DNA of 64,000 nt from Chthonomonas calidirosea T49 (GTDB lineage Bacteria; Armatimonadota; Chthonomonadetes; Chthonomonadales; Chthonomonadaceae): assembly GCF_000427095.1 (NCBI RefSeq), contig NC_021487.1, positions 806,001 through 870,000 of the forward strand. The letters are read 5' to 3'. The notes beneath the pieces are model-generated. The model was not told where the DNA came from. It searched no databases and saw only the letters and a list, made by a program, of their open reading frames with translations. Shown piece after piece: positions 3,142 through 36,054 of the stretch (positions are counted from its first letter, which is position 1; every line of letters starts with the position of its first letter). Made by a program: the position numbers and the translations under genes.

Positions 3142-4137
3142 CTACAACTTGGTTTCACCATGTATTTTGTGCCAGCGTCGGGCATAATCCAGCGCATGAT
3201 AGGTCAAGATGATGTCGGCCCCGGCGCGTTTGAAAGCCGTTAGAATCTCCTCTACAATGCGCTCCTCCTCTATCCAACCGTTCATCGCCGCCGCTTTCAC
3301 AAGGCTATACTCTCCTGAAACATTGTAGACGGCCAGAGGCACATCGAAACGCTCGCGTGCGACATGCAGCACATCAAGATAGGCCAGCCCAGGCTTCACC
3401 ATCACGATATCGGCGCCTTCTCGAATATCCAGCGCTATCTCCCGCATTGCCTCGCGAAGGTTGGGTGGGTCCATCTGATAGCTGCGTCGATCTCCAAACT
3501 GTGGAGCGCTTCCTGCAGCCTCACGAAAGGGACCATAGAATCCACTTGCATACTTCGCGCTATAGGCCATGATCCCTACCTGCGTAAAACCGTTCGCATC
3601 AAGCGCCTCACGAATCGCAGCCACACGACCATCCATCATATCTGAGGGGGCAACGATATCCGCACCGGCTTCCGCATAGCATACGGCTGCACGCGCTAAC
3701 AACTCCAGTGTGGCGTCGTTTTGCACTTCACCCTCTTTAACCACCCCACAATGTCCATGCGACGTATACTCACAAAGGCATACGTCGGGCACAATAAGAA
3801 GAGAATCGCCAAAATTTTTGCGCAAAGCACCAATGGCACGCGGTACAACACCTGTCGGCTGATAAGCTTGGCTTCCTACCTCATCCTTCTGCAAAGGAAT
3901 GCCAAATAGCATCACAGCTTTAAGACCTACACGAACTACTTCTTCGACTTTTCGACAAACGTCGTCTACGGTGTACCGCCAAATGCCAGGCATCGAAGGT
4001 ATTTCTCGGCTCTCCGACTCCTCTGTAACAAACATCGGGAAGAGAAGGTCGCTTGGCTGTACCCACGTTTCCCGCACAAGCTGTCGCAAGGCCTCCGTGC
4101 GTCGTAGCCGACGTGGACGCTCGATCAGTCTATCCAT
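3142..4137 (-). CDS. hemB: Delta-aminolevulinic acid dehydratase (porphobilinogen synthase)
   Basis: 331 residues, the normal family length. It condenses two 5-aminolevulinate molecules to porphobilinogen in haem, sirohaem and cobalamin synthesis. The two Schiff-base lysines are visible: Lys195 in YSAKYASGFYGP and Lys248 in VMVKPG. Cys120, Cys122 and Cys130 (VCLCEYTSHGHC) form the catalytic zinc site, so this is a zinc-type rather than purely Mg-dependent enzyme. The ATG lies 3 bases after the stop of the cobA-hemD fusion, so the two genes are almost certainly one transcript. The other early haem genes (hemA, hemL, hemC) are not in the window. Confidence 0.97.
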   Translation of the reverse strand: MDRLIERPRRLRRTEALRQLVRETWVQPSDLLFPMFVTEESESREIPSMPGIWRYTVDDVCRKVEEVVRVGLKAVMLFGIPLQKDEVGSQAYQPTGVVPRAIGALRKNFGDSLLIVPDVCLCEYTSHGHCGVVKEGEVQNDATLELLARAAVCYAEAGADIVAPSDMMDGRVAAIREALDANGFTQVGIMAYSAKYASGFYGPFREAAGSAPQFGDRRSYQMDPPNLREAMREIALDIREGADIVMVKPGLAYLDVLHVARERFDVPLAVYNVSGEYSLVKAAAMNGWIEEERIVEEILTAFKRAGADIILTYHALDYARRWHKIHGETKL

Positions 4138-28101: not shown

Positions 28102-29463
28102 CTAGAACTGCGCGGCGGCTGCCTCAATCGCCTCAGGGAAGCTGGGATAGGCGTGCATCGTTTGGGTGATGGCCTGAATCGGCAGGTGGTTGCGCATGCA
28201 AACGGCGATTTCAGCGATCACGCTTGATGCGTGCTCTCCGAAGATATGCCCACCTAAAATACGTCCACTTGCCTCCTCAACAATGAGTTTCACCAAGCCC
28301 TCAGGCGCATTACTCAAAACGGCCCGATCGAGATCAGCATAGTCATAGCGGCTCACTCTGATCTTCAAACCAGCAGCAAGAGCCTCTTGTTCGGTGAGGC
28401 CAACGCTCGCCACCTCAGGATCAATGTAGGTACAGCGTGGAGTCACCGAATAGTCTACCGGTTCGTTCGCATTGGCAAATGCGTTGCGCACCATTACACC
28501 CCCCGCATAGCTAGCCACATGGGTAAATAGAGGGCTTCCAGTGACATCGCCTGCCGCCCAAATAGAGGGAACGCGAGTTCGTAAATAGGCATCTACGGGC
28601 AAAGCGTTTCGCTCAATCGCAAGCCCGGCGGCCTCCAAGTTCAGCTCCCCGACAGCGGGCCATCGTCCAGCTGCCACGAGAATCTCATCACAAGCTATCT
28701 TTTCCACACCGCTTGGGGAGGAAAGATGCAGGCATTTGGAACCGTTACATCGTTCAACGCACTCCACGTGAGCCGATAGAATCAGGCGAATCCCCTCCTG
28801 CTGCATCGAAGCCGCTACGCGTTCTGCAATCTCGACATCTTCCCGTGGCAACACCTGAGGCAGACGTTCCAGCACGGTGACCTCGGCCCCGAATCTTCTG
28901 AAGAGAAGAGCAAACTCAAGACCGATCGGCCCTGCCCCAATGACAGCGAGCCGCTTTGGCAGGCTCGTTAACATCACAGCCTCTCGATTGGTGATGAAGC
29001 CGGCTTCTTTCAGGCCCGATATCGGTGGAATGGCGGGAACGGTTCCGGTCGCGATAAGCACCTGCTCCGCATGAATCACCTTTTTCCCTACGCGAATTTT
29101 GTGAGGTTCTTCAAAGGAGGCGTACTCTGGGAAAAAGGCTGCACCCCACTTAGAAAGTCCAGCATCTGGTGGCCCATTTCCGCCAACCTCGCGCATCTTG
29201 CGGGCTTTGTAGGCCATTGCTTCCGCAAAGTCGGCTCGATCTACGGTCACATGAATGCCGTAAGGCGCAGTTTGAGTAACTTGCTTCCAAACCTGTGCCG
29301 CCCGAAGCAGCGCTTTTGTGGGAACGCATCCAGCCCAAAAACACTCACCACCGGTCTCACGCGCTTCGGCAACCGCAACGTGTTTACCCATCTGTGCCGC
29401 AAGGCGCGCCGCCTTCAGCCCTGCAGAACCGCCTCCAATAACGACCAAATCGTACGATTCCAA
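28102..29463 (-). CDS. FAD-dependent pyridine-nucleotide disulfide oxidoreductase (MerA/RclA-like)
   Basis: The frame begins at a TTG at 29484, but AAAGGA lies 6 bases before the TTG at 29463, which opens at ESYDLVVIGGGSAG; I choose 29463 (about 453 residues). The redox pair is in GECFWAGCVPTKALL (Cys-x4-Cys). Also visible are VIGAGPIGLEFA (NAD site) and WAAGDVTGSPLFTHVA (second FAD motif). The C-terminal active-site motif reads HAYPSFPE, whereas lipoamide dehydrogenases have HAHPTxxE. A Tyr thus replaces the catalytic His, as in mercuric-reductase-like enzymes. There is no N-terminal HMA domain and no C-terminal vicinal Cys pair. The substrate (metal, reactive chlorine or other oxidant) cannot be decided. 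Confidence 0.8.
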   Translation of the reverse strand: MESYDLVVIGGGSAGLKAARLAAQMGKHVAVAEARETGGECFWAGCVPTKALLRAAQVWKQVTQTAPYGIHVTVDRADFAEAMAYKARKMREVGGNGPPDAGLSKWGAAFFPEYASFEEPHKIRVGKKVIHAEQVLIATGTVPAIPPISGLKEAGFITNREAVMLTSLPKRLAVIGAGPIGLEFALLFRRFGAEVTVLERLPQVLPREDVEIAERVAASMQQEGIRLILSAHVECVERCNGSKCLHLSSPSGVEKIACDEILVAAGRWPAVGELNLEAAGLAIERNALPVDAYLRTRVPSIWAAGDVTGSPLFTHVASYAGGVMVRNAFANANEPVDYSVTPRCTYIDPEVASVGLTEQEALAAGLKIRVSRYDYADLDRAVLSNAPEGLVKLIVEEASGRILGGHIFGEHASSVIAEIAVCMRNHLPIQAITQTMHAYPSFPEAIEAAAAQF

Positions 29464-29539
29464 GCTCGTTCCTTTCCAACCCAACTCTCTGCTTTAGTTA
29501 TTATACGTGCAAGGCGAGGCGAATGGCTAACCAGTCCTG

Positions 29540-32977: not shown

Positions 32978-33919
32978 ATGTCGCTGTTAAGAAAAGTGCT
33001 TGGCCTTGGCCGCAACGAACACTACGATGAGGGCCTCCGCCTCTTCGATGAGGCGCGTTACGAAAAAGCGCTCGAAGCGTTTGAGAGAGCACGCGACGAT
33101 CTCCATAAACGTCCCTCTACCCTATTAAGCCGCCTTACCAACTTTTATATCGCGGAGACCCATACCCATTTAGGCCAAGAGCGAATGCGACAGGGGCAAT
33201 GGGCGACCGCAGCCGACCACTTTTCAAAGGCGCTCGCCATTCACCCAAACTATGCCGACCTTCATTTTCAGCTCGCACAAGCTCTCCGTGCTATGGGCAA
33301 CAAACAAGAGGCACTCGAGGCTCTCCAAAAAGCGCTCACCATCAACCCGCGCTACGCGCGTGCTCATCTGCTTATGGGGCTCATTCGGTATGAACAGGGG
33401 TGCCATCAAGAGGGTTTAGAGGCCATTTGTCAGGCAACCCTCCTAGAGCCAGCATTTCATTCTGAGGCCTACCGTAATGGGATCGCCTGTCACGAACGAG
33501 GAGACACCCTCGCCGCCCTCCAATGGTTTGAACAGGTTCATCACACCCAAATTGATGACATTCTCTTTCACTTCCAACTCGGAGACGACCTCTATCGTAA
33601 AGCGCTCTATCAGGAAGCCATTGCAGAATACCAAAAAGCGCTTACCCTTAACCCCGACTATGCGGATATACGTCATCATCTTGGCATGGCCTACAAAGCC
33701 TCAGGGCTTTATCAAGAGGCAATGGCCGAGTTCCGTTATGCCCTTCGCCTCAACCCTCGCTTCGTAGACGCACATATCAACCTAGGTTTAACCCTTCGTG
33801 AGGTCGGCCAAAGCCAAGAGGCTTTCACACATTTCCGCAAAGCACTCGACCTTGAGCCGGATAACCCCATTGCAGCCGAGAATCTAAAGGAACTCGCAAT
33901 GGTCGTGAAAGCAGCCTAG
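32978..33919 (+). CDS. Tetratricopeptide repeat protein
   Basis: 313 residues starting after AAGGAGTG. It consists of about seven TPR units, the clearest being HPNYADLHFQLAQALRAMG, NPRYARAHLLMGLIRYEQG, NPDYADIRHHLGMAYKASG, NPRFVDAHINLGLTLREVG and a final PDNPIAAENLKEL. There is no signal peptide and no catalytic domain, so it is a cytosolic scaffold. It follows ugd at 23 bases and may support polysaccharide assembly, which is inference. It ends before a terminator at 33949. Confidence 0.9.
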   Translation: MSLLRKVLGLGRNEHYDEGLRLFDEARYEKALEAFERARDDLHKRPSTLLSRLTNFYIAETHTHLGQERMRQGQWATAADHFSKALAIHPNYADLHFQLAQALRAMGNKQEALEALQKALTINPRYARAHLLMGLIRYEQGCHQEGLEAICQATLLEPAFHSEAYRNGIACHERGDTLAALQWFEQVHHTQIDDILFHFQLGDDLYRKALYQEAIAEYQKALTLNPDYADIRHHLGMAYKASGLYQEAMAEFRYALRLNPRFVDAHINLGLTLREVGQSQEAFTHFRKALDLEPDNPIAAENLKELAMVVKAA

Positions 33920-33948: not shown

Positions 33949-33980
33949 AGGGAGAGAGTGGGACAAGGCACTCTCTCCCT
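33949..33980. terminator. Intrinsic terminator between TPR and Cys-rich peptide genes
   Basis: A perfect 12-bp stem (arms 33949-33960 and 33969-33980, AGGGAGAGAGTG) with an 8-base loop, followed on the plus strand by CGTGTTGTTT. It lies between two convergent genes and can serve both. Confidence 0.75.
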
Positions 33981-34011: not shown

Positions 34012-34215
34012 TTAGCTTGGGCGCTTTGCTGTGGGTGTACAGCACGGACACGGCCGTACACAAGGCGATGGACATAAGGGGCAGCTTTTGTTGCCTTGTG
34101 CTGTCACAGCTGCTTTTTTAATCGCTGGCCTCGCCGTCCGTGCGTGTGTTGGCTCTGCCAGTACAGCTACAGGCAACAATACCGTCAGGGCAACGAACGC
34201 TTTTTGTAGGGCCAT
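34012..34215 (-). CDS. Small secreted Cys-rich peptide
   Basis: 67 residues from the ATG at 34215, which has a near-perfect AAAGGAGGTGAG ribosome site; the longer frame from GTG 34224 would start inside that site. A signal peptide (ALQKAFVALTVLLPVAVLA) is followed by a basic linker and a C-terminal Cys/Pro cluster, CPLCPSPCVRPCPCC, with six cysteines in 15 residues. No family is recognised. A MerR-type promoter nearly identical to that of the nearby MerR gene lies upstream (34301-34332). Together this suggests an inducible extracytoplasmic metal-binding or redox peptide. Function is inference. Confidence 0.7.
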   Translation of the reverse strand: MALQKAFVALTVLLPVAVLAEPTHARTARPAIKKAAVTAQGNKSCPLCPSPCVRPCPCCTPTAKRPS

Positions 34216-34300
34216 TTTCCTCACCTCCTTTCCTTAAATAGAGCAATTCAGGAGGAGAACGGCTTAGGAGCATTCCTCTCCTTCGTCTGCCTCCAACCCC

Positions 34301-34332
34301 AGTGTACAACCTAAAGTCGACTTCAGAGTCAA
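34301..34332 (-). promoter_or_regulatory. MerR-type promoter/operator of the Cys-rich peptide gene
   Basis: Read on the minus strand: -35 TTGACT (34327-34332), then a 20-base spacer, then -10 TACACT (34301-34306). The over-long spacer contains the near-perfect palindrome CTGAAGTCGACTTTAG, the arrangement on which MerR regulators act by twisting the DNA. 34 of 43 bases match the MerR gene's own promoter region (34307-34349 against 35125-35167). Confidence 0.65.
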
Positions 34333-34669
34333 CATCGAAACCCTGCAACCGAGCCTTCCATGTTCGTGATGGAATGGATCGACGACGTACGCTGGCGCAA
34401 GAGCGACCCTACACCACTCGCCCCAAAGCCTATCAGCAACATGATGATTTTATAATCTTAGTTAGTCGCATGAATTTTCCAGGAGAAACAAACATTATAT
34501 GCAACTGAACTCATCTCATTTCTTTTGACAGAGCTACCGTTTCTAAGGCTGGATAGGTATAGCCTAACGCAAACCTTGTGTTTCCAACGATGCAAGACTG
34601 CAGTAACCTCTGCTTCTGTGAGCGTGTCAACACAGCTTATCTGGTGATAATCTTCATCATTCTATCCAT
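34333..34669. other. Gene-free stretch between the peptide promoter and merR
   Basis: About 340 AT-rich bases with no ribosome site joined to a plausible frame and no clear hairpin terminator for the merR gene, whose stop is at 34670. Nothing else is recognised. Confidence 0.45.
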
Positions 34670-35098
34670 TTACACTCTATCCATGTTGCTTTCTGACGTT
34701 TGTACCAGAGTGCTATGTGAGATAATAGAACAGAAGGAAGCATCAGTACGTCCGTGATTCTGCCACAAGAACAGACCTTCTTGTAACGCGGTTCGACGTG
34801 CCTGCAGTTGAGCGATTCGATTATCGAGGCGCTCAATCTTTTTCTGTATCATCTTACTAACTCTGTCGCATGGAGCAATACCCCTGTCGTGCAGCGCTAA
34901 TACAACACGGATCTCCTTTAGAGAGAAACCCAACTCCTTAGCCCGAACAATAAAACGGATACGTTCTATCACATCCGTATCAAAATCACGGTAACCTGAT
35001 TCTGTTCTCCTCGGTTCGGCTAGTAAACCAATCTTCTCATAGTAGCGTATGGCCGTGACGCTTTTGCCAGTTCGTTTGGCTAATTCACCAATTCTCAT
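34670..35098 (-). CDS. MerR-family transcriptional regulator, metal-sensor type
   Basis: 142 residues from the ATG at 35098, which has GAGGTG about 7 bases upstream; the GTG at 35107 lies in that site. An N-terminal winged helix (RIGELAKRTGKSVTAIRYYEKIGLL, with ESGYRDF) is followed by the long dimerisation helix. Cys77 (GIAPCDRV) and Cys123 (ASFCSII) sit where the first and third metal ligands of MerR, ZntR and CadR lie. The middle Cys is absent (LFLWQ there), though His residues are near. A metal or thiol-reactive ligand is likely. It has its own MerR-type promoter, and the same element controls the Cys-rich peptide gene downstream. Confidence 0.88.
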   Translation of the reverse strand: MRIGELAKRTGKSVTAIRYYEKIGLLAEPRRTESGYRDFDTDVIERIRFIVRAKELGFSLKEIRVVLALHDRGIAPCDRVSKMIQKKIERLDNRIAQLQARRTALQEGLFLWQNHGRTDASFCSIISHSTLVQTSESNMDRV

Positions 35099-35118
35099 TC
35101 TACCCACCTCAGACCTTC

Positions 35119-35150
35119 AGTCTACAGTTTGAAGCCGACTTTAGAGTCAA
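35119..35150 (-). promoter_or_regulatory. MerR-type promoter/operator of the merR gene
   Basis: Minus strand: -35 TTGACT (35145-35150), a 20-base spacer with the imperfect dyad CTAAAGTCGGCTTCAA, and -10 TAGACT (35119-35124). The geometry and sequence match the site at 34301-34332, which suggests autoregulation. Confidence 0.65.
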
Positions 35151-35331
35151 CTTCGAAACCGCGCAACTATTGTTACATTCAACCTGTTCACATGCGTTAA
35201 AGATGGTGATCTCCGATACTAATACGCTCTGGGCACGATGCTTTTTGCAAATCGTGGTCATAGCAACTTTCCCAATGTCAAAAGAGGGTACAATAGTCAA
35301 CAAGAGAACGCGAAAAGGGGGGTATCGCAAG

Positions 35332-36054
35332 ATGGACTTAGATGTCCGCTTGGCAGAGACTGTGCAGGAGTATGCCGACTATCTCGAGACATGGCATACC
35401 CAACTGGCCATCGTTCCCTTTGAACAGATCGTCCAAGAGGCCAAAGGCCCTGAACATGTCGGCATTTTCTGTGTGGACGTGATCAACGGCTTTTGCTATG
35501 AAGGCCCTCTTCATAGCGATCGCATTGCCTCTATCGTTCCTCCTATCGTCGCTCTCTTTCAAAAGGCCTACACCATGGGCGTGCGTAACTACGTGCTCAC
35601 TCACGATGCTCACGATCCGGCCGCCGTGGAGTTCAACGACTACCCACCTCACTGTATCCGCGGTACCAGCGAATCGGAGATCGTAGCAGAGCTTATGAAG
35701 CTTCCCTGCGCATCCCACTACCGTCTTCTTCCCAAAAACTCCATCAGTTCGGCTATCGGAACCGGTCTGGACGACTGGCTCGACACTCATCCCCAAGTAA
35801 CCCATCGCATCGTCGTAGGCGACTGCACTGATCTCTGTACCTACCAACTTGCCATGCACCTTAAACTTCGTGCAAACGCGGCCAATCGTCTCGACCCCGT
35901 GATTCTTCCGGCCAACTGTGTCCAAACCTACGATATTCCTGTGGAAGTGGCTAAAAAAGAAAAGATACCCGCGCACCCCGGCGATCTTCTGCACCTTATC
36001 TTCCTTTACAATATGGCCTCTAACGGCGTTCAGGTCGTCTCCGAAATCGCTTAG
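35332..36054 (+). CDS. Isochorismatase/nicotinamidase-family cysteine hydrolase
   Basis: 240 residues from the ATG at 35332, which follows a GGGGGGT ribosome site; the frame is open upstream to 35170 but that part runs through the promoter area. The catalytic triad is visible: Asp49 (CVDVINGF), Lys135 (LPKNSISS) and Cys169 (GDCTDLCTYQLA). HDAHDP (Asp92, His94) plus His107 resemble the nicotinamidase metal site, so nicotinamide is a possible substrate, but other amides fit. A TACAAT at 35289-35294 may be the -10. The gene diverges from merR without sharing its operator geometry. Confidence 0.85.
   Translation: MDLDVRLAETVQEYADYLETWHTQLAIVPFEQIVQEAKGPEHVGIFCVDVINGFCYEGPLHSDRIASIVPPIVALFQKAYTMGVRNYVLTHDAHDPAAVEFNDYPPHCIRGTSESEIVAELMKLPCASHYRLLPKNSISSAIGTGLDDWLDTHPQVTHRIVVGDCTDLCTYQLAMHLKLRANAANRLDPVILPANCVQTYDIPVEVAKKEKIPAHPGDLLHLIFLYNMASNGVQVVSEIA

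Follow-up and report, generated by a model that had tools for sequence, protein, structure and literature searches.

In the window, as we call the whole 64-kb stretch of DNA analysed here, two small genes follow one another on the minus strand. The first (34670..35098) encodes a MerR-family regulator of 142 aa, with its best start at ATG 35098 behind an SD of gaggtg; the second (34012..34215) is a predicted ORF for a Cys-rich peptide of 67 aa (MALQKAFVALTVLLPVAVLAEPTHARTARPAIKKAAVTAQGNKSCPLCPSPCVRPCPCCTPTAKRPS) with a signal-like N-terminus. Chthonomonas calidirosea, from which the window comes, is a soil bacterium. A TPR gene on the plus strand (32978-33919) is convergent with the peptide gene, and between the two lies a strong 12-bp hairpin (33949..33980) with a T-rich tail on the plus strand, which probably closes both transcription units. 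On the other side of the pair, an isochorismatase/nicotinamidase-like gene (35335-36054, plus strand) is divergent from merR. The merR operator described below is located about 185 bp upstream of this gene, so that MerR binding could also affect its expression.

Two promoter sites and their rarity

Each of the two genes is preceded by a predicted MerR-type promoter/operator on the minus strand. That of the peptide gene spans 34301..34332 and reads TTGACT (34332-34327)-CTGAAGTCGACTTTAGGTTG-TACACT (34306-34301), with the dyad CTGAAGTCGACTTTAG; the peptide ATG follows about 85 nt 3' of the -10 element. That of merR, which would place the regulator under its own control, spans 35119..35150 and reads TTGACT (35150-35145)-CTAAAGTCGGCTTCAAACTG-TAGACT (35124-35119), with 20 nt from the -10 element to the merR ATG. 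Both spacers are 20 bp long and hold a dyad, as is characteristic of the overlong promoters of the MerR family (19-20 bp, central dyad). The initial annotation had named these elements, i.e. two sites 818 bases apart with TTGACT, a 20-base spacer with a dyad and a TAnACT-like -10, and we found all of them again at both sites; its count of 34 identical bases out of 43 between 34307-34349 and 35125-35167 proved exact on recount. A repeat finder extends the likeness to a 50-nt unit on the minus strand (34300..34349 and 35118..35167), the copies of which are 80% identical at a spacing of 818 and have GGTTTCGA in common 5' of the -35 element.

The next best ungapped match to either 43-mer within the window reaches 25/43, and the consensus common to both sites, with up to three mismatches, has two window matches as compared to a mean of 0.00 in shuffled sequence. 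With the same tolerance, a search for further copies across the single-contig genome of 3,437,861 bp, which the initial annotation had suggested, returned only these two. Across 291 Armatimonadota genomes, a stricter consensus (TTGACTCTNNAGTCGACTNNAGNGTGTANACT) yielded seven matches, namely the two of the window and a single one in each of the genomes G159, G163, G172, G175 and G178, while a reversed control pattern had none in the same genomes. The context of the matches in G159, G175 and G178 was examined, and in all three (three of the five matches from other genomes) the site lies directly 5' of a MerR relative from the protein search. Furthermore, the 32-nt sites are identical to the Escherichia coli zntA operator at 25 (peptide gene) and 24 (merR) of 32 positions; a genome search confirmed that TTGACTCTGGAGTCGACTCCAGAGTGTATCCT, the sequence taken for this operator, lies upstream of zntA in genomes of E. 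coli. As the sites precede MerR relatives and resemble the zntA operator, the motif can be read as a MerR operator, and in the Chthonomonas genome this predicted operator belongs to merR and the peptide gene only.

The regulator, its fused relatives and the mercury genes

The regulator matches PF09278 (E 3.2e-19), PF13411 (E 9.3e-19) and PF00376 (1.2e-15), in each case exceeding the curated cut-off, and is thus a member of the MerR family; it is also the sole PF09278 (MerR-DNA-bind) protein of the genome. More specific models score lower than their cut-offs throughout: 103 vs 150.85 bits for the NCBIfam MerR (Hg-responsive) equivalog, 98 vs 143 for NF007069 (Zn-responsive), 90.9 vs 167.95 for TIGR02043 (ZntR), 95.9 vs 151.45 for CadR-PbrR and 94 vs 147 for CueR. 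The labels ZntR, CueR and MerR in the sense of equivalogs were therefore rejected. Likewise, no mer gene adjoins the window merR. In an alignment with the solved CadR, whose site is built from three cysteines (Cys77, Cys112 and Cys119), the equivalents of Cys77 and Cys119 are kept as Cys77 and Cys123 (numbering from ATG 35098), and Cys112 pairs with Gly116. The initial annotation had labelled the protein a metal sensor and pointed to Cys77 and Cys123; these residues are present as claimed, but the label holds only in part, because one of the three CadR-site cysteines is missing. The neighbouring His115 could complete the regulator's metal site.

The nearest relatives of this regulator within the phylum are L051 (53% identity) and L069 (48%), in both of which MerR is fused to a thioredoxin_3 domain. 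In our tree, the window protein groups with these two at 99/94, in a clade whose other members are all fused, and it stops where the thioredoxin_3 domain of its relatives starts. No match to this domain was found anywhere in the Chthonomonas genome and no trace of a degenerate one in the three frames of 34330-34690, 3' of merR; a decayed domain downstream of merR was therefore rejected. Given the fused clade, the end of the protein at the domain start and the absence of the domain, its loss is the simplest reading, and the window MerR has probably lost the domain that its nearest relatives carry. Fusions of this kind are widespread in Armatimonadota (L051, L069, L052-L056, L060, L062, L064), and in many of them Cys77 and Cys123 are kept and an aromatic residue is found close to where the middle cysteine would be. 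Cysteines for metal or redox purposes may thus come from their CPLC domain.

It is these relatives, with their fused thioredoxin-like CPLC domain, that lend some weight to a different signal: a genuine MerR regulon might sense redox or electrophile (thiol) stress, with the exported peptide acting as a disulfide or redox buffer. The two remaining cysteines of the three in the CadR metal site and the lack of any NCBIfam metal equivalog at cut-off would fit this as well. However, the operator belongs to the zntA type, the neighbouring His115 could complete a metal site, and the relatives and comparable peptides adjoin MerTP, CzcA/CusA or metal-sensing repressors, for which reasons we hold a redox signal to be unlikely, albeit deserving of serious attention.

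The genome also encodes mercury functions elsewhere. A MerA protein (L127; G000:C1:1473595-1475010 with flanks) scores 512 bits, which exceeds the TIGR02053 cut-off, and features a C-terminal CC. Its gene has a MerTP-like gene downstream, an ArsR-type regulator upstream and no MerR operator, and the merA-merTP operon lies about 0.63 Mb from the window merR. Control of this operon by the window MerR was rejected, as there is no operator and an ArsR-type gene stands beside it. For the same reasons, mercury is not specifically indicated as the signal, and the window regulon would either add to the mer operon or answer another metal. Within the window, a second, intact flavoprotein (28102-29484, minus strand), MerA-like or dihydrolipoamide-dehydrogenase-like, scores 375 bits with the MerA model, under the cut-off, and has no C-terminal CC.

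The peptide gene and similar peptides elsewhere

The best start of the peptide gene is ATG 34215, which is preferred over an upstream GTG at 34224 and is preceded by a strong and properly spaced SD (aaggaggtga). The N-terminus is hydrophobic and resembles a Sec signal; it is from this feature that the peptide was called secreted, a term that we use for putative export to either the periplasm or the extracellular space. The probable mature peptide comprises 47 aa with six cysteines in the arrangement CxxC-x3-C-x3-C-x-CC, all within 15 residues (CPLCPSPCVRPCPCC). Of all ORFs in the window, it alone passed a filter that asked for four or more cysteines, a CC pair, a strong SD and a hydrophobic N-terminus. 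A search of Pfam and NCBIfam assigned it to no family. As a protein query against the 291 Armatimonadota genomes, it retrieved, besides itself, weak matches only, which we judged to be due to chance, the best (1.8e-5) having an internal stop.

Codon statistics are uninformative and give the frame no support. Together with the lack of a convincing ORF homolog in this single-sequence search of 291 genomes and the placement of both sites within one 50-nt repeat, this would be compatible with an untranslated 67-codon ORF, behind a second promoter that is a duplicated operator, acting only as a decoy or driving a non-coding RNA. Such a scenario is quite improbable in our view: it is at odds with the strong, properly spaced SD and the signal-like N-terminus, with the singularity of the ORF in 64 kb and with its position, which matches that of independent MerR-peptide pairs.

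One of these pairs is found in another Armatimonadota family (L080, genome G061), where a MerR gene is followed by the dyad operator TTACCTCTCAAGCCGACTTGAGAGTGCAAAAT and a gene for a putative exported peptide of 53 aa, with the SD aaggaggtg and the C-terminus ...ATECPGKIVCPLIGEEICRCCCPLNGK. In a Bacteroidetes MAG (L019), merR, a putative exported peptide of 54 aa (...GNCPLCSGQRPSCSNSNCITSCCK), merTP and a thioredoxin-like gene occur in this order. Among 296 sampled Bacteroidota genomes, CPLRGTPECPEYPxCCK-type peptides come directly after merR at four loci (L100, L101, L103, L105), in the first three of which they precede a merT-type gene (MerT, PF02411); at four others (L098, L099, L102, L104), merTP follows merR directly, with no peptide between. 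A profile search added three loci: in L150, the peptide is accompanied by a CsoR-type repressor, and an upstream HMA protein resembles the C-terminal part of MerTP, while in L151 and L153 the CPLxGTPxCP unit is doubled and adjoins MerTP-like genes, and L153 also has an ArsR-type gene and a CsoR-like one. Furthermore, Hymenobacter plasmids carry CPLxGTPxCP-type peptides in the vicinity of CusA/CzcA efflux genes, where they follow a metal-sensing (CsoR-type) repressor and a ‘glutaredoxin’; the L019 peptide, searched against plasmids, had no match. The plasmid ‘glutaredoxin’ is 45% identical to the thioredoxin_3 domain fused to MerR in L051; given this match and the shared neighborhoods, regulator, thioredoxin_3 and peptide appear to belong to a single set of parts that recurs. 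In the tree, the peptide-carrying MerR proteins are found on separate branches, so their pairing with a peptide arose or moved more than once.

The place of the Bacteroidota peptide gene between merR and merTP is reminiscent of yet another type of Cys-rich ORF, since exported Cys-rich leader peptides of the translational-arrest kind are known for copper genes. By this analogy, the window ORF could encode a leader peptide that senses metal and regulates a gene downstream by translational arrest, instead of a product with a function of its own. Here, however, there is no next gene on the minus strand: the convergent TPR gene and the strong hairpin in between bring the unit to its end, which makes a leader function highly improbable.

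The anatomy of the CPLxGTPxCP peptides, i.e. a signal-like N-terminus, CPL, CC, a strong SD and an adjoining metal regulator, is also that of the window peptide. Against a profile of the mature parts built without it, the window peptide scores 9.0 bits (E 0.095), and 306 of about 2,995 composition-preserving shuffles (~10%) score at least as high; the G061 peptide reaches 10.0 bits, with about 2% of shuffles as high. Bacteroidota-only profiles were thus rejected as proof of homology for the window peptide, their matches not being significant. The likeness is one of anatomy, for which both common descent and convergence are possible origins.

Peptides of this type are annotated as ‘hypothetical protein’, if at all. 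On a Hymenobacter radiodurans plasmid (L155), for instance, a ‘hypothetical protein’ at 3485-3745 (minus strand) is annotated opposite the Cys-rich peptide frame at 3501-3695 (plus strand) and is probably a wrong call. The peptide profile also brought up a different putative exported protein of 84 aa in the Armatimonadota genome G177 (L134:1393-1647, minus strand), with CPVRGEKI...YFCCSACVQPFKDHPEKY and a YHS/TRASH-like metal motif. Among open-licence papers, we found none on such peptides in mer operons; in a mer-gene survey (PMC8261052), the word ‘peptide’ was not found, and the Chthonomonas genome paper (PMC4959169) mentions neither metals nor MerR. This type of peptide in metal-resistance loci is apparently undescribed.

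A putative minimal regulon among known systems

Taken together, we regard it as probable that the locus constitutes a minimal autoregulated MerR regulon, the output of which is a putative exported soft-metal-binding peptide. The small regulon of regulator and Cys-rich peptide that had been read from the window sequence is supported by the genome-wide analysis, because its two sites are exclusive, its operators are near-identical to that of zntA, and MerR-peptide pairings recur independently in an armatimonadote and in Bacteroidota. Observed directly are the two sites and the fact that the genome has no others, together with the type of operator, the anatomy of the genes and an association that recurs across genomes; from these, we propose a course of events that would include DNA binding, activation, export and the binding of a metal of a certain class.

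Ligand loading makes a MerR-family dimer bend the overlong spacer of its promoter and untwist it. In Chthonomonas, MerR would bind the dyad in the 20-bp spacer of both promoters, and a thiophilic metal ion, or a thiol signal equivalent to it, would occupy Cys77 and Cys123 from opposite subunits of the dimer, perhaps aided by His115. The loaded protein would untwist the DNA and thereby activate merR together with the peptide gene. The peptide would then be exported by Sec and, with its six closely spaced cysteines, could bind soft metals (Hg, Cu/Ag/Au, Cd or Zn class) outside the cytoplasm in the manner of a small metallothionein. It may represent a stand-alone form of the small-peptide part in mercury- and copper-type operons of Bacteroidota.

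Pumps, transporters or reductases are the usual targets of MerR-type regulons. While the regulatory logic found here is that of an ordinary MerR system, it is unusual that its visible output is a putative exported thiol peptide alone. The occurrence of such unnamed peptide genes in mercury- and copper-type operons suggests an overlooked form of metal trapping at the level of the envelope, an idea that is directly testable, as the genes are very small and easily synthesised and assayed. More tentatively, and with somewhat less than even confidence, we propose that exported ‘mini-metallothioneins’, a class as yet without a name, provide Bacteroidota and Armatimonadota with a layer of soft-metal resistance that is distinct and located in the envelope, which would be run by whichever regulator is at hand (MerR, CsoR or ArsR) and charged or reduced by the linked thioredoxin_3; the window would then be its most reduced version, with the peptide as sole output.

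Among known systems, the operator most resembles that of ZntR/zntA in E. coli, with TTGACT, the 20-bp spacer, the dyad around AGTCGACT and a TA--CT -10 element in common. There, however, the target is a P-type ATPase instead of a 67-aa putative exported peptide, and the regulator studied here scores under the ZntR and Zn-responsive models. With the divalent soft-metal sensors MerR, CadR and PbrR, this regulator shares the MerR fold, Cys77 and a cysteine in the C-terminal loop; it differs from them in lacking a cysteine where CadR has Cys112 and in scoring under every equivalog cut-off. Its closest kin are the MerR-Thioredoxin_3 fusions of Armatimonadota (L051, L069, L052, L055, L056), of which L052, L055 and L056 have near-identical operators before merR, as in the window; by contrast, the window protein does not carry the domain. 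On the side of the output, the bacterial metallothioneins and periplasmic binders SmtA, MymT, MerP and CusF are likewise small, thiol-rich or metal-induced binding proteins. SmtA and MymT, however, are cytoplasmic, and MerP and CusF are folded domains, whereas the window peptide is putatively exported and without a Pfam or NCBIfam match. Lastly, the window peptide is set apart from the CPLxGTPxCP...CC peptides of the Bacteroidota mer and Hymenobacter plasmid operons by an operator of its own, by the lack of a MerTP or efflux partner and by a sequence without significant similarity to theirs, but it resembles these in being short, with a signal-like N-terminus, CPL, a CC near the C-terminus and a strong SD.
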